Shown here piece after piece: positions 5,721 through 64,000 of a DNA stretch of 64,000 nucleotides (the stretch's first letter is position 1; the number at the start of each line of letters is the position of its first letter). Origin of the DNA: Alligator mississippiensis (Eukaryota; Chordata; Crocodylia; Alligatoridae); assembly GCF_030867095.1 (NCBI RefSeq), contig NC_081828.1:3673001-3737000 (forward strand). Direction: 5' to 3'. A model generated the notes under the pieces. The model saw nothing but the letters and a program-made list of their open reading frames with translations, did not search any database and was not told the origin of the DNA. The position numbers and the translations under genes are program-made.

Positions 5721-6005
5721 TGTGCCCTTTGCACACCCATCACTTTAGTATCAGAGTTTCTCCTCCTTACTCTCCTAGAATAACTTTACCTGGTACTGTT
5801 ACCTCCCCAAGTGACAGCATCCAACACCAGCTGGGGACGATAGCTTGGACATTTCAAGGACCTGCATGCAATGCATTGGGTCAACTTCACTTCCTTTACT
5901 TCAGGTTTGTAGCGGCAGCAAGCTGGCTTTGCCCAAGAGACCTGCTCCCTACGTAGAGTAGATATGGGAACAGGTTGGCCTGGATATGCCCCTATTAAAA
6001 ATGCT

Positions 6006-6011
6006 TTTATT
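6006..6011 (-). terminator. Candidate polyadenylation signal AATAAA, copy A
   Basis: On the minus strand AATAAA lies about 0.9 kb after the stop codon at 6905. It is the first canonical hexamer I found downstream. It sits only about 40 bases inside the duplication edge and is kept in copy B. Use as the real 3' end is inference. Confidence 0.4.
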
Positions 6012-6070
6012 GACTGGTCTCTGTGGCTTCCCAGCTGGACTTGCAGTGACCAACCTCACCTGAAGATGGA

Positions 6071-6500
6071 GTACCGTATTCTCTGGCATACAACTTGCAC
6101 CCTTCCCCCCCCCAAACCACCTGGTGAAACTTGGGGTGTGCATTATTTGTGAGAAAACTGGATCCCAACGTGTCCAGAAATTTGGCAGTGCGGGGGCAGT
6201 AGCAGTGTTAATTGCCCTGATTTTAGGAGCTACGGGAAAACTGCCACTGCCCCCGTGCTGCCAAATGTCTAGGCCCTCAGCCAGATGACATGGTCCGGCA
6301 TGCCAGATTAGGTACACAGCCCTGGACACAGCACATGGCTCTGGACCCTCCATGCCCCTCCAATGCACAGAGCTGGCAGTCGGTGTGGGGGCAGACTCAG
6401 CTCCTTGTCTGCTGCTGCTCACTTTCTACAGGGAATATCTGTTTTTCTTCATCCTGCCTGTCAAAAACAAGGTGCATCCTCTATACCCCTGTAGGAAAAT
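6071..6500. mobile_element. MITE-like repeat with ACCGTATT termini, copy A
   Basis: The left end ACCGTATTCTCTGGCATACAA resembles an inverted form of the right end near GGAAAATACAC (about 6490-6500). An inner GGGGTGTGCATTATTTGTGAG block echoes the same family. Related ends occur near 7541-7570, 7957-8009, 21110-21215 and 27565-27960. I do not know the family name. Copies A and B differ here by about 3% plus a 57-bp length change. Confidence 0.5.
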
Positions 6501-6904
6501 ACACTAGTGGTATTTAGAGGAGTTATGAGAGAAAGCATAAAGCGAGTTGGAATTGGAGTCTCTGGTCTGCCACACGTTGGTCATATCCAGTTAGCTGGGC
6601 ATAGACCCCATTCCCCACCTCACAAGGGGTTGTTCTTAGGTGTAGTTAGTTGACGTGTCTAATTGCTATGGAGAACCTCAAATGAGAGACGTTAGCCAAG
6701 TGTGTATTAGTATATTAGCAGAGCGCGTGTCCCTGGAGAGCACCCAGGGAACAGAGCAGATAGACAAACGCTACCTCACCAACCAAAAGCAATCCTTGAG
6801 TTATTTAACCAGACAGACATTGTGCCCCTACGGGTTGAAACAGATGGATGCACTGAGGAGGAGGGTGGCCTTCTTCATCCTGTGCGCTGCGGTGTGCACG
6901 TTGT

Positions 6905-7033
6905 TCACAGATGCTTTTGCTTTCGTTGGGTCAGTCTCTCCACCTCCTTCATGAACCGAAGGCAGAGCTCCTCTTCCCATGGCAAAGCCACACACTGAAC
7001 TGCCAAGGGCAGCCCCACAGCTCCACAAGTAGC
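6905..7033 (-). CDS. FAAH: FAAH-like copy A exon 15 (residues 540-581, stop)
   Basis: It encodes ATCGAVGLPLAVQCVALPWE, then EELCLRFMKEVERL and a basic tail TQRKQKHL before TGA. The VGLP.AVQCVALPW.EELCLRFM.EVERL block is the FAAH C-terminus. The acceptor ends GGACAG. Confidence 0.94.
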   Translation of the reverse strand, partial: ATCGAVGLPLAVQCVALPWEEELCLRFMKEVERLTQRKQKHL

Positions 7034-10000
7034 CTGTCCATGGAAACACAAAGAAGGAAACAGCTTGACATCCGAAGTCAAGGCAAGGCGGAAGGCAACA
7101 CAAGCATCCTAAGGCCAGGCAGCTACAAACCTTCACAAGCAGCTTGTCATACCAGTCGTGATGGTATCCCTTGTAGCTCTTCAGTGCTTCCTCATCCTCT
7201 TCAGTCACTGTAGTGACGGGCACGACCCCGGCAGGGAAGTCCAAGAAGTTATGCAGAATAGTATAGCTCACAAGCACTGTAAAACAGAACGTGTTCAGGT
7301 CCTGATCATTACCTCTGCCGGAGAAATGACGCATTCCCCACTGGAAAATCATTCCTTTGGGGGAGGGAGCAATGACGGAGATATTGTAGGAGCACAACTG
7401 GAGCATGGCAGGAGCTCTAGATGGTAAAGGGTCCCTCGACCTCCATCTTCTCTTGTGGAATTCGCTACCTCCAAGGATAACACCTTCCCAGGACCCAACA
7501 TGCATCTTCCCTCCCCTCCCAAACCAGCTGCTATAAATTGGAATGCGCATTACATGTGAGAAATGCGGTAAGTGCAGTATCTGCCACTTACAAGGCAAAA
7601 GGGAAAGTACAGTTTACAGGGAGAAGAATGATAAGCAGACTCAGTTCATTAGCTGCTATGACTCAGGCTAAAAGCAGAGGTTGGATTTCCCCCAGGCCTT
7701 TTATTCCGGGATCCTACAGATGTACAAACTCATTGTCCCACTTTAAGCACCTGGGAAGAAGCACAATAGCCCTTTCCCCCCAGGATAGTCTGTGCTAATC
7801 CAAGTCAGTTGCCATTCAAGTTGTGTGTGTAAATCGCCTGGTTTGATGCAGGTCAAAGGCCAGGATGATCAGATCTGGGATAAACCCAAGGTCTGTTTTT
7901 AGCTTTATTTATTGGCTACAAGGAAATAGCTTGTCTTTCTTCTTTCATCCTTTCAAAACCGGGGTGTGTATCTTATTCTAAAGGCATGTTGTATGGCAGA
8001 AAATACGGTTCTTCTCTCAGCTACACTACTCTGTCCAAGTCCTAGGTTATGAGGATGGGGTATGGTATCTGTCCCCAAACCTATGCCATGCACAGAACAT
8101 TTTGCCCAGCATCAACAGTATTAAAGTACCACATCAAGCTGGAGAGGGTGAGCTATCACCAAAGCATCATGGGTAAAATTGTCAAAAGTGCCTAAGTGAC
8201 ATAGGAGCCCCCATTCCCATATTGGTTTAAGGACCTAATTTTAGAAGGTATTTTGGTGCCTCCCTGCTGCTAAGTGGGAAACAGTCCTGGATAGATCCCA
8301 GCTAAGTGGAGAGATGGGCTTAGGAAGTGTGGGGAGATAGGAGTGGAGATGAAGCTGAAAAGTGCTCTTCTATTATCTCCAGTGAACTGAAAGGCCATCC
8401 ATCCACAGGAAGCCTTAGAGCTCCTTGATCCACCCAAAGAGTCAGGACTGGACATGAGCCTCAAGTGCACCGGCACATTTCCTGCTCCATGAATTTATAC
8501 CTGAGAGTTTTGAAGGATATCCAGCCTTAAAAGCAGGGCCAAACATGGGACACAGCATCACATCCAGATCCAGCTTCCTCCAGTCAGCCATGAATTCTCT
8601 CTTATACTCCTAAGAGCCAAACATACAATCATAGAAACCGAGGGTGGGAAGGGAGCTCAGGAGGTCACATCTAGTCCAACCCCCTGCTCCAAGCAGGACC
8701 AGCCCCAGCTTGCTCATACCTGGAGTTGAGCTTCACTAGGATCAGAAAGATTGCTACCCAAAGAGTGCCCTTAAAATAACACCCCTCAGGTCAGATCAAA
8801 ACCTGACTCAAGAAGATGGCACGGTTCTTCTCAGACATTTCCCTATGAATTCAGATTGGAAGGGAAGGCAATGGCTTTCTTGCCATGCCTAAATGCTTAA
8901 CACAATGAAGCCCAAAAGTAACCAAGTCCTTTAGGCAAAATTGTAATGCAAGAAAAAAAGTGTGATCCATCAATTTTGTTCTTCACCTGTTTGTGAAGAA
9001 TCCCTCTTCCATTTAAAGGGCCCTTAGGGAACCTCACCCACCCAATTCAGTTTCCAGAAAGTAGTTTCAGCCCTACCAAAACCTATTAGCTAAACCAATA
9101 TGCTGCACTCTTATAGATTCATAGATGTTAGGGTCGGAAGGGACCTCAATAGATCATCAAGTCCGACCCCCTGCATAGGCAGGAAAGAGTGCTGGGTCTA
9201 GATAACCCCAGCTAGATACTCATCTAACCTCCTCTTGAAGACCCCCAGGGTAGGGGAGAGCACCACCTCCCTTGGGAGCCCGTTCCAGACCTTGGCCACT
9301 CGAACTGTGAAGAAGTTCTTCCTAATGTCCAATCTAAATCTGCTCTCTGCTAGCTTGTGGCCATTATTTCTTGTAACCCCCGGGGGCGCCTTGGTGAATA
9401 AATACTCACCAATTCCCTTCTGTGCCCCCGTGATGAACTTATAAGCGGCCACAAGGTTGCCTCTCAACCTTCTCTTGAGGAGGCTGAAAAGGTCCAGTTT
9501 CTCTAGTCTCTCCTCGTAGGGCTTGGTCTGCAGGCCCTTGACCATACGAGTGGCCCTTCTCTGGACCCTCTCCAGGTTATCCGCATCCTTCTTGAAGTGT
9601 GGTGCCCAGAATTGCACGCAGTACTCCAACTGCGGTCTGACCAGCACCCGATAGAGGGGAAGTATCACCTCCTTGGACCTATTCATCATGCATCTGCTGA
9701 TGCACGATAAAGTGCCATTGGCTTTTCTGATGGCTTCGTCACACTGCCGGCTCATGTTCATCTTGGAGTCCACTAGGACTCCCAGATCCCTTTCCACCTC
9801 TGTGCCACCCAGCAGGTCATTCCCTAGGCTGTAGGTGTGCTGGACAAAAAAAAAAAAGTGTGATCCATCAATTTTGTTCTTCAACTGTTTCTGAAGAATC
9901 CCTCTTCCATTTAAAGGGCCCTTAGGGAACCTCACCCACCCAATTCAGTTTCCAGAAAGTAGTTTCAGCCCTACCAAAACCTATTAGCTAAACCAAAATA

Positions 10001-13000
10001 TGCTGCACTCTGTCTATACTGCACCTTTGACTACCATGTATTTAGGACCTGCCCACACCCGTTGGTAGCCCTCCTACTGATTTCAGTTGTTGCTGCATAA
10101 GGCCCATATCAAGCCAAAGTTACCGAGAGACATCAATCGATATTCTGGCTGGTACATTACCTCAATCTCACTATGAAGTGCCCAGACTTCCTTCACAGAC
10201 CTAAACATTCAAAAAGAAAAGCAAAGGAAGCCAAAATAGTTCATCCATTTTGCATTCTCATGCACACGCTCTCTCTCTCTCCCAAAGGGCAACCCCAGGA
10301 GACCCCCAACAAGACGGGGTCAGATGACCCACAGTTGTCTGAAAGCTACCTTAGCTTTCCCACCTCCATCAGTGCACCCATCAGAGATCATGGAGTCTTT
10401 CACCCATTGATCTTGTTGTCAAGTCCTGGAACCGGCTACCCAGGGAGGTTGGGAAATCTCCATTCTTGAACATTTTTAAGAACAGGTTGGACAGACACTC
10501 ATCTGGGCTGGTTTAGTCAGGGCTGATCCTGCCTGGAGCAGGGGAATGGTCTAGATATGATCTCCTGAGGGCTTTGCCAGCCCTGTTTTCCTGTGATTTT
10601 TATGATTTTAAGGAGATCAGAGGCTTCTTCATCATGCCTGGTTCAAACACCAAATTCATGGCTGACTCCCGTAATGTCTCCATTTACCCAGGCAGACAGA
10701 GTGCTTGCTGTCCTTGAGAAACTAACTGTTTCTAGCAAAACTCTGAATATTGAGAAATCCCACTCTGATGACTAAACTCACTAAGCGGAAGTCTAAGATG
10801 CAGTTACAAAGACAGGACCATGCACAGAATATGTATTTCTTCTCCTGGGAAATGAGGGGGATGGACCCATTCAAATGCCTGAGACAGACAAGAAATGAGC
10901 TAGGAAATCAATTAACATGGGAAGGCAGGCGCCAGGGGACTCTCCCAGTTCTACAGAAGAGGCTACTACAACCTCTCCAAAACCCTCTGGAAGATGTAGC
11001 AGATACAGAATGAGGTGCTTTGCTTTAGGAGAGGGTTGGGTCCCCAGAAAAAAACCCATTTCTCCAGTGCTCCAGTCTGCACTGGCTTCCAATAGCTTTC
11101 TGGGTGTAATTCAAGGTGCTGGTCTTGACCTATAAGCCCTAAATGGCCTGGGTCCTATATCCCTAAGCGTGACGGCGGCATGCCGCTGTCACGGGCGCAG
11201 GAAGGGCATGGAGAGGATTGGGGGGCAGCAGCACCTTCTCAAGAAAGCCCCGGGCTGAGCTACTCACCCTTGGGAGGGACGGCGGCATCGGAGCCAGGAC
11301 CACAGCAGCAGCCGCAGCCGCAGCCGCCATTACGGCCACGTGAGCCGGTGCTACGCCGGCTGTTTAAACAGCTGTTCCCGGCAAGGGGAGCAGCTGCACC
11401 AATGGTGGCAGCTGCAGTGGCAGGCGTGGGGAGTTTAAAAACCCCAGCAAACCCTGCGGTGAGGGCAACCAGAGAGGGAGAGAGAAGGTGTGCAGCACAT
11501 CGCTGCTGCTGCGGCTTCCCTGGAGCCAGAGTCTCAGGCAGGCAACTCGGCGTCAACCCAGCAGCTGAGGGAAGAGCCGGAAACTCTGGCAGGGGCAGAA
11601 GGAGTGGTCCCCAGGGGTTGCCGGGACCAGGGCAGTGATCCGGGAAGCCTCCCCATCCCGGAGGAATATTATTTCTGAGATCAGGGGAGAGGAGAGAGAA
11701 ATAACCTGAGCTAGCAGCCGGGTCAGTCAGAGTCTAAGGCGGGCTGACTGAAGACGACCGTTGGCCTCGGACCCTACGGTTGGGAGTGCCTGCCAGCAAG
11801 AAGGTCTGCAGGTAACAGCAGACAACCATCTCATCAGCCAGTGACCGGTTGGCGAGTGGACAGGGTGTAGGGGTGGCGGATCCCCATGGAACACCGGAGG
11901 ACCTCAACTGTGAGTACCCCACGTCAGGTAAGCCCCTCTAGTAGAAGATCTCCACTGAACCCCTACTTCGAATCACCTATAACATCAAAGTCGTGGCAGG
12001 CGGGACGAGGGGGAGGGGCTACCGGTTGAAGGGCGGTACCGGACATGAGGCCCGCCGACGTCATACTAAGGAACTGTCTCCTCCCTTATGCACCATCACG
12101 ATACCTAAGGTCAGCCTAGAGAGACCTCCCACAAACACCATGAATGGGCAAGTTCACTTTGGGAGGTTATCCTCAGTAGCCATACCTCAAACCTGGAACT
12201 TCCTTCCCCTTGAGTCTTGCCATAGCGCAAGTCTGGATATCTTTCATGAGTGCTATAAGGCCTTCCTATTTGAGCAGGAATTTAGCAGGAGGGGTTCAGT
12301 GTTGGGATATTGCCCTGGGAACAGTTTTATTCCTTAATGTATAATCGCTTATAATCACTTTTTCATTGCACACAGCACTACACCTTATTCGGGGAGGGCA
12401 GCATAGACCCAAATCAACCACTAATCCACTGAGAAGAGTATTTCTTCACAAGACTAGGACTTGTTTGTCAAATCTCCTGTGGCGGCAAGCTTGGAAGTTT
12501 TGTTGGCATGGCTAGGAGTTGGGTTTCTTCTGAGGAACCAATTGAATGCGTCTACATGTGCAAGTAAGGTGCAAAAATAAACTCTGGTGCACACTGCGCC
12601 AGAGTTTAATGCTCCTGGGCGCTGCGTTTGAATGCGTGCTGGGGAGTGCAGCACGGTAAGCTGGGTTGGAACAGATCTGGCTCAACGTGCTGTGGAGGGG
12701 CTGGCTGGGCCACGAGGATGCTCCAGTCAGCTGGGTCAGCATCTACACATACATTACTTACAAGTACTATCCTACGGCAGAGTTTGTTAGTTTACTGTGG
12801 CCTAAGAAGGCCGCACGTGAAGACGCTGAAACATTTACTGCAGCGTTAACTAGTCAGCTCCGCAGTAAATGTCTCATGCAGACACACCCACTTAGTAGCA
12901 GCTTCCCTTGGTGTGTGCTGGTTTGATTATTATTTTAAGTAACAAAAGCCTGATTTACATATATAATGTTATGGTGTTAATTGTTAAACCCCAAATGTCA

Positions 13001-16000
13001 AGCTGTGCCCTTATACATTTACTCAGCCCTCCTGGAGTTACTCACCTGGTCACCAGGTTTCCCAATATTTTTGATAACCGAGGTATCTAAGAAGAAGAAA
13101 AAAAGGAGGACATGAAACATGAACATTTGTATGTTTAATTCATTTATTGAACATCTCAGATGAATCTGGCTAAACCAAATATGAATTATGGATGGGGCAG
13201 GTTGCCTACTGGTGTGAGCAGGGGATGGGAGTCAGGACTCCTGGGTTCTGTTGTCAGCCTAGGGAGACAATGTCATTTCCAGCTTGTTGGAAGGGTTAGG
13301 ATCCCTTGATTTCTTTTCTGGTTATGTTACCTTGGAAAGAACACCCCTACTCCATTGCTCTCACTGATTGTCTGCCAGGTCCATTTGAACCGGATGTTCT
13401 TTGGGACAGTGACTTTCAGAGTCCTGTGTCCAGTTTTGGGTCCCCCACTACAGAAAGGATGTGGACACACTGGAGAGAGTGCAGCAAAGGGAATCGAAAA
13501 GGTTAGGGGGCTGGGACACACGACTTGTGAGGAGAGGCTGAGGGAACTGGGCTAGTCTGCAGAAGAGAAGATGGAGGGGGATTGAATAGCAGCCTTCACC
13601 TCCCTGCAGGGGGGCTGCAAAGAGGATGGAGCTGGACTGCTCTCAGTGGGGGCAGATGGCAGGACAAGGAGCAATGGGCTCAAGCTGCAGCAAGGGAAGT
13701 TGAGGTTGGCTATTGGGAAAAAAAACTCTCTGACTAGGAGGGTGGTGAAGCACTGGAACAGGTTACCCAGAGAGGTGGTGGAGTGTGTATCCTTGGAGGT
13801 TTTAAACAAAGCCAGCTCAACAAAAGCTTGACTGGAATGATCTAGTTGGGGCTGGTCCTGCTTGGTCCATGTTGGAGCAGGGGGTTGGACTAGATGTGAC
13901 CTCCTGAGCTCCCTTCCCACCCTCACTTTCTATGATTCTATTCTTTTTTATGAAGTGTCTTTACAGAACTACCAGGCTGGGGTCTAGATGTGTTACAGCA
14001 ACACACCCAGCCTACAAGGGGCTGTGACTATGGCGAAACTTTAGCAAAGATGGGCCGAGTGCTGCTCGAAACCTCAAATGGCATGAATTTAATTTGGTGT
14101 CATTGCAAATACAACAAATAAGATTAAAAGGACATTCCTCCCTTGTCCTCCCCAAGTTGTTGAACTGATTTCTTTCCAGGCATGTGATTAACCATGCACT
14201 GGGAGAAATATGGCCTTGCATATTCAGCCAACTCTGTTGAGGGACAAAAAACACTCGCCCACAAAGTTATTGGTATTTGTTCCCACCCCTCCGTCAGCCC
14301 ATTTCTACATTATTCTACCTACTTCAGAGACAAGTGTTTCATGTAGCACTAGGTATGGGTTGTGTTTAAGTAGAAGAAAGTGCCTTACTCCCCCTATTTG
14401 AGAGAGGTGAACCCATTTTTCTACTCAAAGTAGACTAGAGGTGGCCATGACTCTTTGTGTATCTCATGCAGACACAAGGTGAGTCCTAAGTTCTCCTAGA
14501 GACTGACAGACAAAAATCCCTGGCATTGGCTTAGTGGAATGACTTCCTCTCTCACCTGATGGAAAAAAAACTCAGCTGGAAATCAGTCAAGCTCAAAAGT
14601 GAACCAACCATGTATGGAATATAGTTACTATTCCCTTGCCTGTGAAAGGCAATCAAAAAATTAGCTTTTCCTTTTGTCTTTTAACTCTGTTCTTCCCTTT
14701 GTATGATATTTATCTCAGGAGCTCTTTGAATGAGAACTGAGTCAGAGAGGACACACGCAGCACAGACAGAAGTTACAGAAGACATTACACTTTGAAACAC
14801 CTTATTGTGATACCTCATCCAGGGAGGGGTCAGATTTTCACCCAGCGCACCATTTTTGAAGCTGCCTGTAGCTGTGCGCTTGTGTTTGGTCACAGTAATA
14901 AATTGTTTTCTGTGGCCAGATTGGGTGAAAATTGTCACTTCTGTCTATGCCCAATAGAGCACTTCTTCTGGTTGACAATCACTGCCTGATAGTGATGGTG
15001 CTGAATTTATGCCAGTAGTAAGATGCCTTTGAGCTGTAAAAAAAGAGGATGTCTATGCAGTGCAATACTGTGCCACATGAAGCGGTAGGTGAGAATCAGG
15101 GGATATCTGCCCAGATGGAGCGCAGTGCTAACATGGCTATCCTGCTCCAAAAGCCCAAGCTAGCCCACGGCATCCAGCCAGGAAGACAGCCCCTGAGTCA
15201 TCCTCTCAGTACTCAGGTTAGTCACCAGCCAGCTAAGAAGTCAATGCAGGTTAAACACATCTTACTATTGGTCCGGTGATCCAGGATATGAATTTTTTAA
15301 ACCAATCAGGCATCTTGGTCATCAGGAGAAACTGTCTGGCATAAGGTTCCTTCAACTCCCCTTTGCTGAAAGAGAACAGTGCACTTGTTGAAGCAGGCAG
15401 TAGCTACCACCTCAGCTCTTTCACTAGCTGCCTCTTGGAAGGGTATAGTAAAGGATCACGTTTCTCAGCTGAGCTCTCTAGGTGTCTCAAGGTCACTGGG
15501 CTACCTGAGTCTAGCAGCCCCCTGGGCAGGACGGCCCACCTAAGTCAAGGGCACACAGGATAGGGATATCCAGCATCACATCTGTCTGACTTCAAATCCT
15601 CTGCCCAAATAACTGAGTGCCCACTGACAGCTGTATCAGTGGTATTTCGCCCCTCTGCTGCCAGGGTGGGACATTTCATCTGCTTTATCACTGAGCCTCT
15701 TCTCCAGCCTCTTAACACCAGGACGTTCTCCCTTGGAAAGCAGTAGCTCCAGATACTCAAACCTATTTGGTTCCAACAGGAATTTGTGCCTGGATACGTA
15801 ACATCCCTGAACCAATCAACTGAGCCACGGTCCAACTCAAATTAACCTGCTGGTGTTCTGGGCTAGGGACAGGCATTACACACAGACTGGTTGAAGTGAT
15901 CAGAGACTGGTTTAAACCTGCAACAGAACATAAGTTCAGTGTTGTGGTTTTATTAGCCCACCTGCAGGTTTGCAGCCCTGTCAGAGATTGGGAGACTGAA

Positions 16001-40980: not shown

Positions 40981-40984
40981 GGAT

Positions 40985-41984: not shown

Positions 41985-42110
41985 CTTTGTCACCCACACC
42001 GGCGGGCGGACCTTGGGTTAGTGTGTTTCCCTGCTTTGTGCCTCAGTTTCCCTGGCTGTAAATGGGGAGGAGGGTCTTGTCCTACATGCACAGCTTGTGA
42101 GAGCCCCTCA
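41985..42110 (+). mobile_element. MIR-like SINE fragment
   Basis: GACCTTGGGTTAGTGTGTTT, then GTGCCTCAGTTTCCCTGGCT and GTAAATGGGGAGGAGGG, is again the MIR core. Confidence 0.7.
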
Positions 42111-43063
42111 TGAAGGTCTTGTAGTAGCTTCTGTGTCTCTGCGCGGTCACTAGTGATCTAGAAATGGACTGACCCCCGGGTATTTCCATCTCTCTCTCAT
42201 TCTCCTCCTTTCTGCACTCTGCTGCCCAGACCCTTGTCTGCCCTCCCGTCTGCCTCCCCTTTGCTTCCAATGCAGGCAGCTCTTTCCCTATAAGCGGCTC
42301 TGCTGAGAGGGCGTTGAAGTCCTTATAGATCCACCTGCTCCTTTCCTGGCCCTGGGCATCCAGTTGAGAGTCCTCCCAATAAAGTGCAGCTCACCTGGGG
42401 CACAGCTGCTTCCATGTCTCCTCCATGCCCTTCCTTGCTGCCGTGACTCTAGCCCCACTGGTTTAAAAGCATGGAGGAGGGGGAGGAAGAACTTGGCCCC
42501 CAGTGCTGTGAGCACAGGGTTGCTTGACTGCAGCAGGGAGAGGCTTGCAGCTGCAGCCAGGGGCGAGGTTTGGCTCACGCCTGAGGATGCAGCGAATGCG
42601 ACCCAGCCTATCTCCCCAAGAGGAAGCCAGGGAAGAAGCAGCCTTGCTGTGCTACTCCTTGGCCTCCTTGTCTTGTTTTCAGGAAGGAAGCTGTGAGGCT
42701 CCACTTGCTCACTTCCTTATGGCTTCTCCCAGCTGGAGGGGGCTCAAGCCCTGGTGGAAGAAACGGCAGGGTTACATCCTCCAAGACTCACCCTAGGTCC
42801 AAGCCAGCTCCTCGGAGGATCATTGTCCCCATATCGGTGCCTAGCTCTCCCCAGCTGCCCACAGTCATGTTTATGTGGCCTCTACCACTTCCACACCCAA
42901 CTGGCGAGGGGGAACACGGGGAACTTCTCACTCCCTGCATTAACCTGGTGCAATCCCAACCCCTCCATTGCCCAACCGTCTGCAATGCTGCACCTACCAG
43001 TCCCCCATCTTCTCTGCCTACCCCTCCATACCTGGATCCACCTGTGAAGGTACCACCCTAGGT
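42111..43063. other. Intergenic sequence up to the duplication junction
   Basis: No gene was recognised. The 138-codon minus frame at 42288-42704 has no family features. Unit A ends at about 43063. Confidence 0.4.
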
Positions 43064-43103
43064 GGGAACTGGTTTGCCTGGATATGCCCCTATTAAAAAC
43101 GCT

Positions 43104-43109
43104 TTTATT
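43104..43109 (-). terminator. Candidate polyadenylation signal AATAAA, copy B
   Basis: It corresponds to the copy A hexamer at 6006-6011, about 0.95 kb after the copy B stop. Confidence 0.4.
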
Positions 43110-43168
43110 GACTGGTCTCTGTGGCTTCCCAGCTGGACTTGCAGTGACCAACCTCACCTGAAGATGGA

Positions 43169-43655: not shown

Positions 43656-44059
43656 ACACTAGTGGTATGTAGAGGAGTTATGAGAGAAAGCATAAAGCGA
43701 GTTGGAATTGGAGTCTCTGGTCTGCCACACGTTGGTCATATCCAGTTAGCTGGGCATAGACCCCATTCCCCACCTCACAAGGGGTTGTTCTTAGGTGTAG
43801 TTAGTTGACGTGTCTAATTGCTATGGAGAACCTCAAATGAGAGACGTTAGCCAAGTGTGTATTAGTATATTAGCAGAGCGCGTGTCCCTGGAGAGCACCC
43901 AGGGAACAGAGCAGATAGACAAACGCTACCTCACCAACCAAAAGCAATCCTTGAGTTATTTAACCAGACAGACATTGTGCCCCTACGGGTTGAAACAGAT
44001 GGATGCACTGAGGAGGAGGGTGGCCTTCTTCATCCTGTGCGCTGCGGTGTGCACGTTGT

Positions 44060-44188
44060 TCACAGATGCTTTTGCTTTTGTTGGGTCAGTCTCTCCACCT
44101 CCTTCATGAACCGAAGGCAGAGCTCCTCTTCCCATGGCAAAGCCACACACTGAACTGCCAAGGGCAGCCCCACAGCTCCACAAGTAGC
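44060..44188 (-). CDS. FAAH: FAAH-like copy B exon 15
   Basis: Same as copy A apart from CGA to CAA (R576Q) in the C-terminal basic tail; same stop. Confidence 0.93.
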   Translation of the reverse strand, partial: ATCGAVGLPLAVQCVALPWEEELCLRFMKEVERLTQQKQKHL

Positions 44189-53100: not shown

Positions 53101-56100
53101 AGTGCCCACTGACAGCTGTATCAGTGGTATTTCGCCCCTCTGCTGCCAGGGTGGGACATTTCATCTGCTTTATCACTGAGCCTCTTCTCCAGCCTCTTAA
53201 CACCAGGACGTTCTCCCTTGGAAAGCAGTAGCTCCAGATACTCAAACCTATTTGGTTCCAACAGGAATTTGTGCCTGGATACGTAACATCCCTGAACCAA
53301 TCAACTGAGCCACGGTCCAACTCAAATTAACCTGCTGGTGTTCTGGGCTAGGGACAGGCATTACACACAGACTGGTTGAAGTGATCAGAGACTGGTTTAA
53401 ACCTGCAACAGAACATAAGTTCAGTGTTGTGGTTTTATTAGCCCACCTGCAGGTTTGCAGCCCTGTCAGAGATTGGGAGACTGAAAAGCTTTGTATCATC
53501 AACAGATGCATGCACTGCACACCCCACCTTTGCCTCAGAGTGCAGCCAGTGCGGGAAAAGCCTGAGATGGTGCAGGCCACGGTGGGGGTTTACACCTCTC
53601 CCTAACCAGAGGTCCTGTCAGGGCCTGGCCATGTGCCTCCCCACCCCCCAGCTCAGCACTAGGGAAGGGAAGGGAGGGCTACTCTAGCACCCCGCAACTT
53701 CTAGTCTGAGCCACTGCAAGCATGTGCCTGCATTTCTTCAGTCCACAGGGGATGTCTGTATGTTATAAGCTGGTTCAGCCTAGACAGGTTAGACTAACCT
53801 GAAAAGATTCATAGATTCATAGATGTTAGGGTCGGAAGGGACCTCAATAGATCATCGAGTCCGACCCCCTGCATAAGCAGGAAAGAGTGCTGGGTCTAGA
53901 TGATCCCAGCTAGATACTCATCTAACCTCCTCTTGAAGACCCCCAGGGTAGGGGAAAGCACCACCTCCCTTGGGAGCCCGTTCCAGACCTTGGCCACTCG
54001 AACTGTGAAGAAGTTCTTCCTAATGTCCAATCTAAATCTGCTCTCTGCTAGCTTGTGGCCATTGTTTCTTGCAACCCCCGGGGGTGCCTTGGTGAATAAA
54101 TCCTCACCAATTCCCTTCTGTGCCCCCGTGATGAACTTATAGGCAGCCACAAGGTCACCTCTCAACCTTCTCTTGAGGAGGCTGAAAAGGTCCAGTTTCT
54201 CTAGTCTCTCGTCATAGGGCTTGGTCTGCAGGCCCTTGACCATACGAGTGGCCCTTCTCTGGACCCTCTCCAGGTTATCCGCATCCTTCTTGAAGTGCGG
54301 CGCCCAGAATTGCACGCAGTACTCCAACTGAGGTCTGACCAGCGCCCGATAGAGGGGAAGTATCACCTCCTTGGACCTATTCGTCATGCATCTGCTGATG
54401 CACGATAAAGTGCCATTGGCTTTTCTGATGGCTTCGTCACACTGCCGACTCATGTTCATCTTGGAGTCCACTAGGACTCCAAGATCCCTTTCCACCTCTG
54501 TGCCACCCAGCAGGTCATTCCCTAGGCTGTAGGTGTGCTGGACATTTTTCCTCCCTAGGTGCAGCACTTTGCATTTCTCCTTGTTGAACTGCATCCTGTT
54601 GTTTTCTGCCCACTTGTCCAACCTGTCCAGGTCTGCTTGCAGCTGTTCCCTGCCCTCCATCGTGTCCACTTCTCCCCATAGCTTTGTGTCATCTGCAAAC
54701 CTGGACAGAGTACACTTCACTCCCTCGTCCAAGTCACTGATGAAGACATTAAAGAGTATCGGTCCAAGGACCAAGCCCTGCGGGACCCCACTGCCCACAC
54801 CCTTCCAGGTTGAGACCGACCCATCCACCACGACTCTTTGGGTGCAACCCTCTAGCCAATTCGCCACCCACCGGACTGTGTAGTCATCCACATCACAGCC
54901 TCTTAGCTTGTTCACCAGTATGGGGTGGGATACCGTATCGAAGGCCTTCCTGAAGTTTAAGTATACAACATCCACCCCCTCTCCTGTGTCCAGGCATTTC
55001 GTAACCTGGTCATAAAAAGAGACTAGATTGGTCAGGCACGATCTGCCCGCCACAAACCCGTGCTGGTTTCCCCTCAGCATAATTTGCCCTGCCGGGCTCT
55101 CACAAATGTGAGCCTTGATAATTTTTTCAAAGACTTTACCAAGGATGGAGGTGAGACTGACTGGCCTATAGTTGCCTGGGTCCTCCTTCCTCCCCTTCTT
55201 GAAAATGGGGACCACGTTAGCCCTTTTCCAGTCCTCCGGGACTTGGCCCGTGTGCCACGAGCGTTCGAATATTTCCGCCAGTGGCTCTGCAATGATTGAA
55301 TCAATTCAGGCTCAGGCTTTTTGAATGTCTGTCCCTAGCCCTGGAGGTGCTCATTTTTGGTGGTTGCCAGCCACCATCACCACTTTCTTGGAGCTGCTCA
55401 CAACCCCATGAGCTGATCCTTCCCTCACAAACAGGAAACAGAGGCAAAAAGAAATTCATTGCCTTGCCTAGTGGGGCTAGCACTTGCCTAATGGTGCTAG
55501 CACTCCACTCAGGTTCACCACATACCAATCCAGCACTTGAATTCATGGGCTGCCCCTTCCCTGCCCCTCCCAACTTTGTCATTTGGCCTTGACCCACAGA
55601 ATGTCCTTTATCCCTGTTTATATTGAACTAAACATAGGAAAAATATTGCCTACTCACATCTTATATGCCTGAGCACTCACTTAGAGATAGATGTGTGCAT
55701 GTGCACACACACAAACACACACACTTGCTGAAGGTTGTACTTACAAGTTGTCCACATATGTGGAACTTCCATCTGCAAACAATCCCATTAGGCAAACATT
55801 AAAGAAAAAGTCCTCTGAGAAGTGGGGTTTGAAAGGCACCAGCTAAAAAAGCAAACAAGGGGAAAGGCAGTGAGTCTAGAGATAAGAGCACCATGAGCCG
55901 CACAGAACAGAGACAAACAAATGCAAATGATCAAAGGCTCATGTCTCTTGCTATTAGTCCAGCTGGCTGCTGCAGCCTGGGATGGTATCAGGGTTTGAAA
56001 GTGTGAAAGGCTGGCAGATACTGCTTGGGTGGGCCAGTGAGTTTTTTACTTAAAATGTAGACTTTTGACGGAAGTTAACTAAGCACTTCTAGGTTTGAAT

Positions 56101-59100
56101 GGCTTGTTTACACCCAGCATTTGAAAAACAGGGATAGGAACCATTTCCAAAGCTAATTACTCAGCACTGCACAGTTGTCAGCTTGAGTCCACAGACATTT
56201 TAGATCTGGATACAGTGGTATTGATTTCCACCAGAGAGCCTAGGCCATCATAAAAACAGGTGTACAGGCATCAAGTGATCCATGCACCCTGTGCTGTTGT
56301 TAGAAAGCACATTGGAAGCAAGACCGGGAACAAGAGTTCTGATGTCATACGTGAGTATTTTCGTATGCAATCTCCCACACATTGGGGAAATGAGCAGGGT
56401 TTGAAAGAAATTCCTCTAAAGTCACAAGGGGTTTGCTGGGAAAGAGGATCTGTTCAGCAGTTCAAGTTTGTTTTTTGGGGTTTTATTGTTTCCTCTGGAA
56501 TTCTGTCACTGTAATACAACCTTCTCCGTGGGGAAATTAAAAGAAAAAAATATTTAGCACATACTATTCTTTTAAACTCAACTCTTCCAAACGAGTTGAG
56601 TTTACATGACTCGTGAGGAGAGGCCAAGGGCCAAGGGCTTATTTAGTCTGTAGGAGAGAAGACTGCAGGGGATTGAATAGCAGCCTTCAGCTCCCTGCAG
56701 GGGGGCTGCAAAGCGGATGGAGCTGGACTGTTCACAGTGGGGGCAGATGACAGGACAAGGAGCAATGGGCTCAAGCTGCAGCAAGGGAAGTTGAGGTTGG
56801 ATATTAGGGAAAACTGTCTCATGAGGAGGGTAGTAAAACACTGAAACAGGCTGCCCAGAGAGGTGGGGGAGTCTCCATCCGTGGAGGTTTTCAACACCCG
56901 GGTAGACAAAGCCTCGTCTGGGATGATCTAGTTGGGGCTGGTCCTGCTTGGAGCAGGGGGTTGTCACTAGATGTGACGTCCTGAGCTCCCTTCCAGCCCT
57001 CATTGTCTATGATTCTGTGAAAAGGCACTAGAGGATTTTAAGAAAGTTCTGTTTTTCAGTGACCGCACACACCCCCACAAGGATCTTGGAGTCATTATTG
57101 ATGCCACGATGAACATGGGCCGACAGTGTGGGGATGCAATCAGGAAGGCCAACCGCACCTTGTCGTGCATCCACAGATGCATCTCGAGCAGGTCCAAGGA
57201 GGTGATCCTCCACCTCTATGCGGCACTGGTCAGGCCGCAGCTGGAGTACTGCGTCCAGCTCTGGGCGCCGCACTTCAGGAGGGATGTGGACAGCATGGAG
57301 AGGGTCCAGAGGAGGCCACCCACATGATCAGGGGTCAGCAGGGCAGGCCCTACGAGGAGAGACTGAGGGACCTGAACCTGTTCAGCCTCCACAAGAGAAG
57401 GCTGAGAGGGGATCTAGTGGCCATTTACAAACTAGTCAGGGGGGACCAGCAGGCATTGGGGGAGTCCCTGTTCCCCCCAGCACTCCTGGGAGTGACTAGA
57501 AATACCGGTCACAAGCTGGCAGAGGGTAGATTCAGACTAGACATCAGGAGGCGCTACTTCACTGTCAGGGCGGCTAGGATCTGGAACCAACTTCCAAGGG
57601 AAGTGGTGCTGGCTCTTACCCTGGGGGTCTTTAAGAGGAGGTTAGACGAACACCTCCCTGGGGTCATTTAACCCCATTGCTCTTTCCTGCCCATGGCAGG
57701 GGTCGGACTTGATGATCTGCTCAGGTCCCTTCCGACCCTACCAACTGTGAAACAACTATGAAACTATGAAACACACCCCCACCCACGAGATGCACAAGTT
57801 AATAGACAAATCTGTTGATATAAAAGTGATAATTTCACTGAGGTACTTACAGAATGAACCTATGGGGTTTGTCCATGTTACAGCTTCCAGTCCAACTGCA
57901 ACATTTTAAAGCATATGTGTTTGCTTTAGTATTAATAGCAGCAAAGCCTCATGGACTTCATCACAGGCTGACCTTGCAGTTATGTGCCATGGGTTGGCAC
58001 GTATGAGTATGGTCTGACTCTGTTGTAAATTCAAGGGGTGTCCACATGGTTCAGTCACACCTCTATGCACCCTGTCAAGGAGGTTCTAAAAGCCTGCTTA
58101 AATGTAAATGGCAAGTTTCCCATGGATGCCAAGATGGCACACGAGACATTGAATGCTGAGCAGTAACACCTCGTTGCCTCCTTGTGCCATTCATCTTTGT
58201 CTTGTCTAAGACCAAAAAGTCTTTAGACCAAAAAGTCTTTTACAGCACCAAGCACCATAGGGGTCCTGTTGCATGACTGATGCTCATGTGCCCTCTCCCA
58301 GACAGTGCCATATTTCCAAGGATTACCGTATGGCCGGCGTCCTCTAGAAGCTTCTTGGTCTCCAGAACTGCACGTCTCATGGAAGGAGTGGCCAATGTTA
58401 AACTATCTGTATCGTAATACCCTATGCGGAGAGGCCTTGAACTGGCATACACCTGGGGTGGAAGAAAGGGAGTCATTTGTGGTGTCAGGAACCAAAGAAA
58501 GGCTTTCAAAACTGGCAGGAACAGTCATTTCTAATGTCTCAATACTGGGAATGTAATACACTTAGCAAAATCAACCCAATAGGTTCCCCTTGTTGCTTTG
58601 AAAAGCAGAGAATTCACAGCCAGGGGTGCATTGAGTATAAAAAGGAACTCAGAGCTTAAGGCAAAAGATTGGCAGAGCCTTATGGTCAAAGGCTCAAGCA
58701 ACTAAGTCCTTCTCTGTGGGCATGTCTACATGTGCACTTACTGCACAGTAAATTCCTGTGCAATAAATGGTTTTTAGCCTGGCGTCTACAAATGTAGGTG
58801 TTACAGCACAGTAATGCTGTGTGTGCATTGACTTGGGAGTAAAGTTACTCCAAGTCAGTCCATACAAACAGGGTTACTGCACAGTAAGGCATCTACACGT
58901 GCCTTGCTGCTCAGTAAGTACTTGGGAGTAAATTTGCTACCTGCATAATGCAGGTAGCAAATTTACTCCTGAGTCAGTGTAAGTCACCATACTTACTGAG
59001 CAGTATGGGCATGCACATGCAGACGTGCACCTGTACTGCACAGTGATTTTCAGTTACTGTGCAGTAACCTAAGTTACTACACAGGAACGATGCACATGTA

Positions 59101-59536
59101 GACACACCCTGTGTGTCTCACTTTCGAAACTGGAAAAACAGGGAGGATAATACCACGTGATCTTGCATACAACACCCCCCTTTTTCCCAAGTGTAGCTGC
59201 TGGAAACTGGAGTGCGTGCTATGAGTGAGGAAATATGGTAATGGCAGTTTCTGTATACAAGGAAATACAGTATTACCCTCAGGGAGGTTGCAAAGCTTAG
59301 TTTGCTCCCATGTTATCATTCTGTACTCAAAGGTGTAGAATAATAGCTGCTCATCAGTGGTACACTCCTGGACCCCTTCTTCCCTCTACAGAGATCTTTT
59401 TGGGACTTTACCTCCTCCTTGAAGGGCATTGGAGGCACAGAAGAATCTAGGCGGAATAAGTCATCACACAGGAGTGCCCTCATGAACAGAGCCAGGCTGT
59501 CCACATCCCGTGCCATGGGCCCGATTGCTGGTATTG
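44060..59536 (-). CDS. FAAH: Fatty-acid amide hydrolase 1-like, copy B: exons 7-15 (partial)
   Basis: The 3' part of the second gene. Coding exons on the minus strand: 59412-59536, 58327-58452, 55745-55842, 52751-52850, 50531-50571, 48621-48660, 45656-45764, 44286-44431, 44060-44188. All nine keep their splice sites and reading frame and end at the same TGA. Exons 1-6, with the membrane helix and all catalytic residues, are expected just beyond the right edge; by the offset, exon 6 would start near 64675. In copy A numbering the product differs by T380M, F419L, I434M, E455G, L489I, S490P, I497V and R576Q. No synonymous change was found. Nothing visible marks it as a pseudogene. It lies upstream of copy A in the same direction. 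Confidence 0.92.
44286..44431 (-). CDS. FAAH: FAAH-like copy B exon 14
   Basis: Same as copy A apart from ATT to GTT (I497V) within SYT(I/V)LHNFLDF. Confidence 0.93.
44635..45164. mobile_element. ACCGTATT-family MITE-like repeat in intron 13, copy B
   Basis: Counterpart of 7480-8009, almost unchanged. Confidence 0.4.
45656..45764 (-). CDS. FAAH: FAAH-like copy B exon 13
   Basis: Same as copy A apart from the first codon (GAG to GGG, E455G) and the last two full codons (CTC TCA to ATC CCA, L489I and S490P). Acceptor and donor are intact. Confidence 0.9.
45782..45867 (-). mobile_element. CR1 LINE 3'-end fragment, copy B
   Basis: Counterpart of 8627-8712. Confidence 0.75.
46267..48470 (-). 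mobile_element. CR1 LINE with a 702-codon open ORF2 remainder
   Basis: The minus strand is open from 48484 to 46376. It starts in the linker after the endonuclease (VKVLDLRKADLNALRRLVKE), passes the RT motifs VPIFKKGRKEDPGNNRPVSL, VVYLDFRKAFDTVSHPILVN, SGVPQGSVLGPILFNVF and the catalytic FADDTKLWG, and continues to the C-terminal WNGLPREVVLSP. No stop interrupts it. It is 5' truncated (no endonuclease), so it is not mobile by itself, but it looks young. A CACTC repeat flanks it. Confidence 0.95.
48621..48660 (-). CDS. FAAH: FAAH-like copy B exon 12 (microexon)
   Basis: Identical to copy A exon 12 (SVKEVWALHSEIE), though the flanking intron is among the most diverged tracts. Confidence 0.88.
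48878..48997 (+). mobile_element. CR1 LINE 3' fragment, copy B (73 bp shorter)
   Basis: Counterpart of 10418-10610; the tail between GGACAGACACT and TTGCCAGCCCTG is missing. Confidence 0.7.
49447..49820 (+). mobile_element. Old LINE fragment (L2/L3-like), uninterrupted in copy B
   Basis: CTGGCTTCCAATAGCTTTCT through CCCTAAGGAACTGTCTCCTC to AAGGCCTTCCTATTTGAGCA reads as one fragment. This is the empty site for the 898-bp insertion of copy A. Confidence 0.65.
50031..50375. mobile_element. MITE with GTCTACATGTGC-type ends, copy B
   Basis: Counterpart of 12546-12890. Confidence 0.6.
50531..50571 (-). CDS. FAAH: FAAH-like copy B exon 11 (microexon)
   Basis: Same as copy A apart from ATA to ATG (I434M) within IPRLSK(I/M)LGN. 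Confidence 0.88.
50898..51427 (+). mobile_element. CR1 LINE fragment, copy B
   Basis: Counterpart of 13413-13942. Confidence 0.9.
52751..52850 (-). CDS. FAAH: FAAH-like copy B exon 10
   Basis: Same as copy A apart from TTC to CTC (F419L) within WFKK(F/L)ISW of the membrane cap. Confidence 0.9.
53806..55297 (-). mobile_element. CR1 LINE, 439-codon open RT region, copy B
   Basis: Open on the minus strand from 55215 to 53896, from VPIFKKGRKEDPGNYRPVSL through FADDTKLWG to VFKRRLDEYLAGII. It keeps the 554 bases that copy A has lost. It is truncated at its 5' end within the RT domain near CAATGATTGAATCAATTCAG. Confidence 0.95.
55745..55842 (-). CDS. FAAH: FAAH-like copy B exon 9
   Basis: Same as copy A apart from ACG to ATG (T380M) within NVCL(T/M)GLFADG. 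Confidence 0.9.
56605..57019 (+). mobile_element. CR1 LINE fragment, copy B
   Basis: Counterpart of 18566-18980; near its start a GGGCCAAGGGC repeat replaces GGGAACTGGGC. Confidence 0.88.
57051..57774 (+). mobile_element. CR1 LINE fragment, copy B
   Basis: Counterpart of 19012-19735, with the same frame break, which therefore predates the duplication or was converted. Confidence 0.93.
58327..58452 (-). CDS. FAAH: FAAH-like copy B exon 8
   Basis: Identical to copy A exon 8 (RPLRIGYYDTDSLTL); same splice sites. Confidence 0.93.
58718..59109. mobile_element. MITE with long inner hairpin, copy B
   Basis: Counterpart of 20679-21070, with only about two base changes. Confidence 0.8.
59412..59536 (-). 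CDS. FAAH: FAAH-like copy B exon 7
   Basis: Identical to copy A exon 7 (GPMARDVDSLALFMRALLC); same acceptor and donor. Confidence 0.93.
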
Positions 59537-60023
59537 CTGAAATAAATCAAGAGACCATTTGTGCAGACAAGCATCAGGTCCCCATGAACCTCCAAAGGGA
59601 GAAAACTATGTGGGGGCTGTTGGGCAGAAGCACACCCATGGTCTATTCTATCCTATTTGCGACAGTGGCTAGTACCAGCTACTTCAGAACAGGCCGGCCA
59701 CTCTGGGATAGCCCCCGTCCAGGGAATCATCTTTCTGATGCTCTTTATTCTGAGGTTTACTGGTGCCCTGAAGCATGAGGATTTCTTTTCCTTCTTCCCT
59801 CAGTCCTTGCAGCGACTCTGGATGTTTTCATCATACAAAGTAGTGTAGGAGAAACCCAAGAGCTCTGCATTATTTTCCCATTTGATTTGCAAATGAGAAA
59901 GATTCCTGAGCTGTACAGAATGTTCCTTCAATGGGGTTAAAAAGCTGGAAGGAGTCTTTGTTATACATGAAGAAATCCCATGATTTCACTCTATGTTAAG
60001 GAGCAGTATATGTCTTCCACCGT

Positions 60024-63001
60024 TAAGGCGGGGGTGGAGGAGGGGAACACGAGGCATTGTGGGTCAGGATCCAGGGATGGCCAGGGGAAAAGGACTTGGT
60101 TGTGGGGGTCTACTACAGGCCTCCTCATCAGGATCAAGAGCTAGACGTTATATTCTCTGGGCAGCTAGCAGATGCCACACAAGCGAGGGAGGCAGTGGTC
60201 ATGGGAGATCTAAACCACCCAGATATCTGCTGGGAGGAGCAGACAGCCAAAACAAGCCACTCATGGAGGTTCTTACACTGTGTGCAGGACCTCCACCTAT
60301 CCCAGGTGGTGTCCAGTCCCACCAGAGGTAACGCCTTGCTTGACCTGGTCTTAGCAACAGGGGGTGATCTCATGGGGAACATGCGAGTTCATGGTAGCCT
60401 GGGAGATAGTGACTATCACTTGGTTGAGTTCACTATCCAGTGAAGGGTGGGTAACTAGTGGGGCTAAGGTGCTGGACTTCAGAAGGGCCAACTTTAGTAA
60501 GGCTAGTTAGTGGAGGGATGCAACTCAAGAACATAGAGCAAATGGGGGTCCAGGAGGGTTGAAGGTATCTCAAGGGAGTGATCCTTGGGGCTCAAAAGAA
60601 GTCTATCCCATTACGTAGGAAGGGAGGTAAGGGGGCAAAAAAGCCCCCTTGGCTGAACAGGGAACTCCAGGAGAGTCTGGGGGCAAAGAAAGAGATGTAT
60701 AGGCAATGGAAGCAGGGAGCAGCCACCAAAGAGGAATCTCTCTCTCTGGCATGCTATTGGAGGAATCTAATACTCATTTTGTTTCTTCTGCCAAAGGCTT
60801 TGTGGTCTCTTTCAGGAGATCAAAAGAAGAACCTGGCAACACAGAGCCAAAGAGCTTCCTTTGGTATCCTCTCTAAAAGTGATCTTGGATGTATTTGGGT
60901 TGGGCTTGGGAATTGCAGGGAATTGGTCAGACAGGCCAAGGCGGGGCTTGACCTGAGGCTGGCTTCAACAATCAAGGACAACAGAAAGTCCTTCTTCAGG
61001 TATATAGCGGGCAAAAGGAAAGCTCAGCGCAACATAGGGCCCCTACAGGACAAATCAGGAAAGTTGGTGGTTGACGTGAGGAAAAAGCAGAGCTCTTCAA
61101 TGAGTTCTTCGCTTCAGTATTTCTACGTACCGACCAAGCCAATCCCCCCACCTCGATCATTGATGGATGTCCACATGGCACCAGTCTACCTACGGTTAGT
61201 TCTGAAATAGTTAAGGAGTTCCTGAAGGAGCTGGATGGGTACAAGTCAGCAGGCCCGGATGACCTCCATCCATGGCTGCTGAAAGAATTGGCCAGTGTCA
61301 TAGCTGAGCCATTGGCACAACTGTTCAAGTGCTCGTGGTGCTCCAGCCAGGTCCCTGAGGACTGGAGAAGGGCCAATGTGGTGCCCATTTTCAAGAACGA
61401 GAGAAGGGATGAGCCAGGTAACTTCAGGCCAGTCAGTCTTACCTCTATTCCTGGGAAAATGCTAGAGAAAATAATCAAAGAACACATTTGTGCAGGCCCA
61501 GCAAGGGAAACGATGCTGAGGGGAAACCAGCATGGGTTTTGTCACAGGTAGATCCTGCCTGACAAACCTTGTAGCCTTCTATGACCAGGTCACACACTGC
61601 CTGGACATGGGAGCCAAGGCTGATGTCATCTTCCTGGAGTTTAGGAGGGCCTTTGACACAGTTTTGCACCCTATCCTCATTGGGAAGCTAGCAGACTGCC
61701 GAGTGGATGCCTACACGGTCAGGTGGGTGGCCAACTGGCTTAGGGACCGCACCAGAGAGTAGTGGTGGATGGTTCCTTCTCAGCCTGGAGGGAGGTGACC
61801 GGTGGGGTCCCTCAGGGTTTGGTCCTCGGACCGATAATATTCAATATCTTCATCAGTGATTTGGACGAGGGCGTGGAGAGCACCCTCTCCAAGTTCACTG
61901 ATGACACCAAGTTATGGGGCAAAGTTAGTACACCGGAGGGCAGGGAGCAGATTCAGGCCGACCTGGACAGTTTGGATCAATGGGCAGAGAGAAATAGGAT
62001 GCAATTTAATAAAGATAAATGTAAGATACTCCACCTGGGAAGGAGGAATCCCCAGCACACCTGTAGGTTGGGGAGTGTCATAGATTCATAGATGTTAGGG
62101 TCGGAAGGGACCTCAATAGATCATCGAGTCCGACCCCCTGCACAAGCAGGAAAGAGCGCTGGGTCTAGATGACCCCAGCTAGATGCTCATCTAACCTCCT
62201 CTTGAAGACCCCCATTGTAGGGGAGAGCACCACCCCCCTTGGGAGCCCGTTCCAGACCCTGTCCACTCGATAGATTGTAATGTCCACCCTGTCCTCAGCA
62301 GCTCGGAGGCAGAGAGGGATCTTGGAGTCATAACTGACTCCAAGGTGAACATGAGCCGGCAGTGTAATGAGGCCATTAACAAGGCCAATCGCACCTTGCC
62401 TTGCATTAGCAGGTGCATGACTAATAGATCAAAGGAGGTGATGCTCCCCCTCTATGCGGCACAGGTCAGGACACAGTTGGAGTACTGCGTCCAGTTTTGG
62501 GCACCGAACTTCAAGAGGAATGCGGGGAATCTCGAGAGGGTCCAGATTAGGCCACTCACATGATTAGTGACTTTCGTGATAGACCCTACGGGGGGAGGTT
62601 GAGAGAGCTGAATCTCTTCAGCCTCCACAAGGGATGGCTGAGGGGAGAGCTTGTGGCCGCGTATAAATTTATTAGGGGAGGTCAACGGGGAATAGGGGAA
62701 GCGCTGTTTACTAAGGTGCCCCAGGGAGTGACTAGGAACAACGGGTGTGAACTAGTTGAGAGTGGATTTAGGTTAGATATTAGGATGAACTTTTTCACAG
62801 TAAGTGTGGCCGGGATCTGGAATGGGCTTCCAAGAGAGGTGGTGCTATCACCTAGCTTGGAGGTCTTCAAGAGGAGGCTAGATAGTCACCTAGGTGGGGT
62901 CATCTGACCTCGGTCCTCTTTCCTGCCAGGGGCAGGGGGTCGGACACGATGATCCATTGTGGTCCCTTCCGACTCTACAATCTATGAATCTATGATCTAT
63001 G
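60024..63001 (+). mobile_element. Long CR1 LINE, copy B, with nested CR1
   Basis: Counterpart of 21985-24628. Unlike copy A it keeps the stretch with [20 protein letters not shown] (the RT catalytic region, here TDD instead of ADD) and carries a second CR1 tail at 62081-62290. The foreign block is at about 60754-60909. Confidence 0.93.
62081..62290 (-). mobile_element. Nested CR1 3'-end insertion, copy B only
   Basis: CATAGATTCATAGATGTTAG, then GGTCGGAAGGGACCTCAATA, up to TAATGTCCACCC, interrupts the older CR1 inside GTGTCC(TT)CTCAGCAGC. Copy A has the uninterrupted text at about 23918-23928. It is 5' truncated to about 200 bases and slightly rearranged near its 5' end. Confidence 0.88.
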
Positions 63002-64000
63002 ATCAGATGAGAATTCCAGAAAGAGGTGGACTTAGCTCCAGCCCCCCGACCAATTCTATTGCAAGGAGACAAGCCCCACAGCTGGGCCTGGGAAAGGGAC
63101 ATGAAGCCGGTGCTGGTTAAGGTAAGTGGAGGATTAGGGAAAGAGAAGAGGCAACTCTTCAGGACACCTTCAGATGTGTCTATGGCTCTTGCAAGTAGTT
63201 CAGATCTGTTCTCCTGGAAGAATAGCTTTTAGGCTTACCCAGATCTGGTGTTTTATACTGACTTGACTTTTGCTAGAACAAACCAATGGTAAAAACAGCA
63301 GAACACCTTTCCCTGAGGGTCACAGGCCAAGGTTTCCCTTTGTATAGACAGAGTGTACAAGGCAAAATGACTCAATCCAAGCCAATGTGGGTATTACTCT
63401 TCAGATGAGACTCATGCTATGTAGTTGGGTACTCACCACCCAAGCATGCAAGAGTATGTCTACACTGCTCCCTGGCTTCAAGCACGCTAAACCCAAAATG
63501 AGTAGGCCGTACATCTGGGAGCATGAACAAGTTGAATGCTCTTGAACCAGGCCAAGGGGAAGTGGGTAATATCTCACAGACACCAGCTGTGTAGAACCAG
63601 AAGGGCCACACTTGCAGACTAGTGCTCAAATAACTGCTAACCTAAGCAAACTATGTTTGTGATGGGCACAGTAGCTGTTGCTCTAAAACGGGTGTACACT
63701 TCTCAGCAAAAAAACCCCAGTTGTAAGATGGAAATATCCATGTGTCTTTGGATTGGAGTTTTCCATTTTTGTCTCCATAGGCATGCTGCCAACACATCAC
63801 TTCCAGTAGCCTAACAAAGAGACATACTCGCTGTCAGGGTGAACCTGGTCACATGGCTATGGTAGCAAGTACTGGGCAGAGGACCAAGGGTAGAGGTCCG
63901 AGACCTTCTGCTTTCTGAGACCTGCTGGGTCCCACTTCCCCATACATCATTAGCATGGTCAACCAAGCCCAAGCCAAATACATCCAAGATCGCTTTTAGA

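Follow-up and report, generated by a model that had tools for sequence, protein, structure and literature searches.

A probable array of six FAAH-like genes, with three recently copied members, in Alligator mississippiensis

FAAH degrades anandamide and lipids related to it and is generally regarded as a single gene (FAAH2 apart). Is it a single gene in Alligator mississippiensis, or does the locus hold several copies, and are those copies real? The question was raised by a stretch of 64,000 nucleotides (the window; positions 3673001-3737000 of chromosome NC_081828.1, C5 below, in a genome of 2.35 Gb in 195 contigs), for which a sequence-only reading had claimed a head-to-tail duplication of a complete FAAH-like gene. 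We estimate a probability of about 86% that the locus is a genuine local array of lipid-amidase genes, formed by repeated old duplication, recent head-to-tail copying of a 37-kb unit and later exchange between copies.

When the window was compared with itself by BLAST, positions 5965-25627 and 43063-64000 gave direct, collinear matches, supporting the claimed head-to-tail duplication. Across five aligned blocks in the window, copy A differed from copy B at 197 of 18,443 bases (1.07%), with few small indels and several large differences. The first base common to both copies was the T at 5965 and 43063; leftward of it the sequences were unrelated (6 of 30 bases matched). Tandem unit A spanned 5965-43062 on the plus strand (C5:3678965-3716062; 37,098 bp, its gene on the minus strand) and extended 8.1 kb upstream of the ATG, in agreement with the unit of about 37.1 kb, with 15 coding exons and about 8 kb upstream, that had been proposed. 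The left part of unit B occupied 43063-64000 in the same orientation. At the A/B junction (43060-43063) the unit end, ...CCTA, was followed by the filler GG and the unit start, TGGGAAC..., and identical letters were found at the junction between unit B and a third unit, C, described below. An AATAAA motif, a candidate poly(A) signal, lay on the minus strand in both copies, at 6006-6011 in A (some 40 bp in from the unit edge) and at the equivalent position in B (43104-43109). The unit edge was thus only about 40 bp past this motif (5965-6011 and 43063-43109), indicating that the whole transcription unit was kept almost exactly by the duplication.

The FAAH-like gene of copy A (6905-35003, minus strand; ATG at 35003, stop ending at 6905) encoded 581 aa in 15 exons (35003-34812, 32986-32873, 29532-29389, 28584-28451, 27322-27116, 26342-26302, 21497-21373, 20413-20288, 17803-17706, 15365-15266, 13086-13046, 10200-10161, 8609-8501, 7276-7131 and 7033-6905), with AG/GT at the splice sites. 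Human FAAH also has 15 coding exons. Exons 7-15 of copy B (44060-59536, minus strand) were found at 59536-59412, 58452-58327, 55842-55745, 52850-52751, 50571-50531, 48660-48621, 45764-45656, 44431-44286 and 44188-44060 with intact frames and splice sites, while exons 1-6 lay beyond the window, with the ATG at C5:3746367. Both copies were therefore as intact as had been claimed, copy B for its nine visible exons. The predicted copy A protein carried the Pfam domain PF01425 (Amidase) at residues 95-564 (E=3.1e-111), and its best match among solved structures was FAAH1 2wj1 (phmmer E=1.3e-200; 294 of 551 aligned residues identical). Lys144, Ser219 and Ser243 of copy A aligned with K142, S217 and S241 of rat FAAH, and a hydrophobic N-terminal stretch was seen by eye in the FAAH-like proteins.

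When flanking sequence was added (C5:3590001-3680000 and C5:3730001-3840000), the 14,000 bases overlapping the window had no mismatch, and the array proved larger than the sequence-only reading had supposed: tandem copying was real, with three young and three older genes in place of one duplication. The forecasts made from the window were borne out on the extended chromosome, where exon 6 of copy B lay at about 64676-64716 (forecast near 64675) and unit B ended at C5:3754427, equivalent to window position 81427 (forecast near 81 kb), followed by unit C. The six FAAH-like genes shared the minus strand and occupied 174 kb (C5:3610164-3784506); along the chromosome they came as D3, D2, D1, A, B and C. 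All six models had 15 exons and no internal stop and encoded 581-590 aa; least certain are the weakly conserved exons of D1-D3, for which length, phase, splice sites and similarity guided the choice. The Lys-Ser-Ser catalytic triad (equivalent to K142/S217/S241) was kept in all six. Protein identity was 97.9-99.3% among A, B and C, 70.2-80.8% among D1-D3, 54.0-56.6% between D1-D3 and A-C, and 53.1-55.3% between the six proteins and the FAAH of the PDB. In a tree of full-length proteins both the A-C clade and the D clade were supported. The six-gene array with intact frames and its recent triplication are very probably real, and each gene most likely makes a membrane-bound serine amidase for fatty-acid amides.

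A search of the same genome with PF01425 gave 30 matches (all 44 candidates were scored), which covered all six array loci and three other places, at C1:92.8 Mb, C1:251.9 Mb and C8:36.7 Mb. We take these three, from their letters, to be like QRSL1/GatA, an unnamed amidase and FAAH2, and with these presumed labels no further FAAH1-like locus outside the array was present among the PF01425 matches. In human, UQCRH and NSUN4 are neighbours of FAAH. A UQCRH-like frame was found at C5:3597493-3597675, 12.5 kb left of the array, and none of the 10 NSUN-type matches in the genome was near it. In a tree of 113 columns with a FAAH2-like outgroup, the PDB FAAH was left unplaced. VDHAP (vitamin D3 hydroxylase-associated protein) is another FAAH-like protein, and the six array genes may be orthologous to FAAH1 or may instead be FAAH-like relatives of the VDHAP kind. 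Chicken VDHAP is called a propionamide-metabolizing amidase in a cited title (PMC9942826) and is present in a chicken gene list (PMC10959104).

The three young units were not equally related along their length. Unit B measured 38,364 bp, and unit C extended to C5:3803236 with extra insertions; several kb of these, relative to A and B, lay in its upstream part (C5:3786858-3803236). BLAST mismatches numbered 273/35,882 for A-B, 375/34,064 for A-C and 269/36,249 for B-C and were unevenly spread. From the left edge, B differed from C at one base in 12,851 bp, and at the right edge no difference from A was found over 7,535 bp, so that a 20,386-bp segment over the A/B junction (35529-55914) had a copy, different at a single base, over the B/C junction (C5:3746893-3767278). 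Mid-unit, the first stretch of B was 0.45% from A and 0.76% from C and the second 0.58% from A and 0.59% from C, a LINE-rich (long interspersed nuclear element) stretch between the two having been excluded from the counts. At the variable coding sites, B matched C at 8 of 8 in exons 9-15; in exons 1-8 it matched A at 5 of 8 and C at 2, and stood alone at 1. Thr87 was found only in B among the young copies. B is a mosaic, C-like at the 3' end of the gene and A-like at the 5' flank, a pattern characteristic of copies that have undergone unequal exchange or conversion with each other. Before C was known, the divergence between A and B was described by a two-state hidden Markov model (0.25% and 2.95%; twice the log-likelihood difference, 123) and attributed to conversion between two copies; with C known, the mosaic structure of B describes the pattern better, although it does not account for the LINE-rich tracts.

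The chromosome right of C read CCTA-TGTAGAA and that left of A read GATA-TGGGAAC, and the founding junction was CCTA-GG-TGGGAAC. With no homologous arms and two filler bases at this junction, end joining would be the likeliest origin. We infer the following order of events and mechanism of growth. Repeated duplication of an older FAAH-like gene would have produced D1-D3 along with the lineage of A, B and C; recently, the 37-kb unit with its whole gene would have been copied in head-to-tail orientation, with end joining as the probable mechanism; and later unequal homologous exchange or conversion may have made or re-shaped the third copy.

These same data bear on an assembly artefact, in which haplotypes of a single- or two-copy locus were strung together and at least one tandem copy is unreal. 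On the window alone this was a serious rival. The non-coding divergence of A and B was modest, 58/10,089 (0.57%) outside hand-picked repeat and variable stretches, and lies within the heterozygosity of 0.95% given for zebra finch in the cited passages of PMC9516828; further, the 20.4-kb repeat over both junctions could be a graph loop. However, A, B and C were all distinct in mid-unit, which is too many sequences for two alleles of one locus and needs at least two loci, and B ended C-like on one side and A-like on the opposite side. A-B tracts of about 3% divergence and large structural differences also argued against it. The same passages describe false duplications as having haploid depth and as most often separated by gaps (PMC9516828), whereas no N was present at the junctions, in the window or in the 250-kb stretch of C5 around it. 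The third tandem unit and the mosaic B strongly weakened the haplotig alternative, which was lowered once C was found, and we now consider an artefact quite improbable. A 1,001-bp probe from the left part of the unit matched two further places in the genome at 93%, a 57-bp gap included.

Coding variation among A, B and C was confined to 16 of 1,746 sites, of which 13 were nonsynonymous and 3 synonymous. Over the full coding sequence, nonsynonymous/synonymous counts were 12/3 for A-C, 10/1 for A-B and 4/2 for B-C; for A-C, dN was 0.0090 and dS 0.0075 (ratio 1.19). By contrast, dN/dS was 0.17 for D1-D2, 0.21 for D1-D3 and 0.25 for D2-D3, at dS of 0.71-0.89, and the 13:3 proportion differed from that of D1-D2 (Fisher p=0.004) and D1-D3 (p=0.019). 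The probability of at least 13 of 16 changes being nonsynonymous was 0.004 at omega 0.25, 0.097 at omega 0.5 and 0.48 at omega 1, showing that the usual constraint of the family is rejected while moderate constraint is not, and that positive selection is not demonstrated. In exons 7-15 all 8 coding changes between A and B were nonsynonymous (P 0.06-0.12 under neutrality), a pattern not upheld over the full coding sequence, where A-B had 1 synonymous change and A-C had 3. Coding (8/914) and non-coding (58/10,089) divergence of A and B did not differ (Fisher p=0.26). The young copies most likely evolved under weaker than usual constraint, as these counts suggest, and partly at substrate-channel positions.

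Weaker constraint could also mean that the young copies are redundant, with at least one drifting to a pseudogene, so that loss of constraint alone would explain the nonsynonymous excess. The 13:3 count fits omega=1, and C carried His at a position where the other five genes and the PDB FAAH had Tyr332. The neighbour of FAAH in human, FAAH-OUT/FAAHP1, is described in the cited passages as a pseudogene that expresses a long non-coding RNA (PMC6676009, PMC10473560). Against such drift, the models of A, B and C had no stop, frameshift or non-AG/GT splice site, a weak argument when few lesions are expected at such divergence. We regard drift as possible, on balance somewhat doubtful.

The 13 amino-acid changes fell at positions 36, 88, 211, 244, 330, 378, 417, 432, 453, 487, 488, 495 and 574 of rat FAAH. 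Four of them, as noticed post hoc, coincide with substrate-channel positions known from mammalian FAAH. In the cited parts of PMC8781999, a nine-residue channel list includes 244 and 432, and 495 and 488 are among the residues that ligands contacted most often in docking; PMC4643906 treats residues 488 and 432 and reports a T488A mutant with reduced sensitivity to an inhibitor. One reading is that diversifying selection acts on the channel and that the copies are specialising for different lipid amides. The hypergeometric enrichment was P=0.015 for the nine-residue list (two hits) and 0.001 for a list of 23 residues (four hits) assembled by hand from the cited passages of these two papers. However, the two papers had been found by way of Phe432 and Thr488, and one of them lists eighty residues that contact ligands in docking. 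When exons 7-15 alone were considered with a seven-residue version of the channel list that includes 531, there was one hit (P=0.17). A dN/dS above 1 was not demonstrated, and several changes were conservative (I/V, L/I). Diversifying selection on the channel thus seems rather unlikely.

Phe432 and Trp531 form a paddle proposed, in the passages of PMC4481349 and PMC7033180 cited here, to steer the lipid choice of FAAH. Phe432 was found in none of the six genes; position 432 was I/M/M in A/B/C and D/D/H in D1-D3. Position 531 was Tyr in A-C and Trp in D1-D3, an assignment that depends on alignment, since A-C have a Trp one residue earlier.

Several points weigh against our reading of the locus. 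The B stretch at equal distance from A and C is not accounted for by a single crossover. The 20,386-bp repeat with one mismatch would fit an assembly loop too, and the copy number may therefore be off by one. The evidence for selection is small, as 13:3 fits neutrality and omega 0.5 is not rejected. The channel idea arose after the positions had been seen, and two of the residues had guided the choice of papers, so that the enrichment is a lead only. Finally, in the cited part of PMC4481349, the single rat mutants F432A and W531A each barely shifted the Km for anandamide (from 5.26 to 5.80 and 6.15).

The copies also differed in structure. An 898-bp GC-rich (about 62%) insert at 11168-12065 was present only in A, absent from B and C, and flanked by a 5-bp direct repeat, CTAAG; it bears CpG and is possibly a solo long terminal repeat. 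Copy B contained a long LINE, presumably of the CR1 type, at 46268-48465 (minus strand; also delimited as 46376-48490), with an uninterrupted frame of 704 aa that carries a reverse-transcriptase domain. Its truncated counterpart in A was limited to 9113-9846, together with a second copy, of about 160 bp, of the adjacent 8950-9111. Copy A had lost 1.47 kb of the element, with about 160 bp copied in place from alongside. The segment 8950-9111 recurred at 9848-10011 (97% alike) across the truncated element, and no second copy was found in B by self-BLAST. The arrangement at 8950-10011 resembles a deletion filled by templated insertion. A further CR1-like piece of about 555 bp was found only in B (53944-54498); it was absent from A at 16458, and 5 bp were common to both ends. 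About 330 bp were absent from A at 23843-23921, and B lacked 74 bp and had gained 57 bp. Between 23440 and 24343 of A, two LINE-rich tracts differed from B by 4.8% and 7.1%, their neighbours by 0.2-0.4%; other elements may have acted as donors in ectopic conversion there. In the window as a whole, ARAGORN and Rfam (gathering thresholds) gave no match, six short rows of tandem repeats were found, and Pfam detected reverse transcriptase in 2 of 8 frames and no domain in the other 6.

The array genes resemble mammalian FAAH (FAAH1) in the Amidase domain, the K142/S217/S241 triad, the hydrophobic N-terminal stretch and 53-55% identity. They are unlike it in their number, in the absence of Phe432 and in the Tyr aligned to 531 in A-C. 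As with FAAH-OUT/FAAHP1, FAAH-related genes lie side by side, but all six array genes have intact frames; the human arrangement indicates that tandem copying at the FAAH locus is not unprecedented. In the passages cited, the moss Physcomitrella has nine FAAH genes with differing channel and paddle residues (PMC7033180), which is likewise several genes per genome but in another lineage, whereas the alligator genes are in tandem with very recent copies; in zebra finch, one gene bears the name FAAH1-like (PMC6693190). We found no paper describing such a FAAH array in the open-licence PMC literature.

An enzyme often discussed as single-copy thus appears to have expanded locally, and single-gene assumptions about FAAH in inhibitor and expression studies may fail outside mammals. 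The locus illustrates clearly how a duplication, probably made by end joining, can be succeeded by homologous exchange; the array-forming process itself is ordinary, and it is the enzyme, the absent Phe432 and the pattern of change that make the array worth describing. Among the positions at which the array offers natural variants, 432 and 488 were mutated in PMC4481349 and PMC4643906, respectively, and 495 is a docking contact in PMC8781999, as far as the cited passages go. Added dosage or a shifted lipid preference from the young copies would be plausible. It is unlikely, although conceivable, that a six-member lipid-amidase array replaces canonical FAAH, its youngest members diverging at the substrate gate by unequal exchange and fast change; if so, the alligator would hold a set of naturally occurring variants, differing in lipid selectivity, of an enzyme that degrades endocannabinoids, and all of them would lack the complete Phe432/Trp531 paddle.

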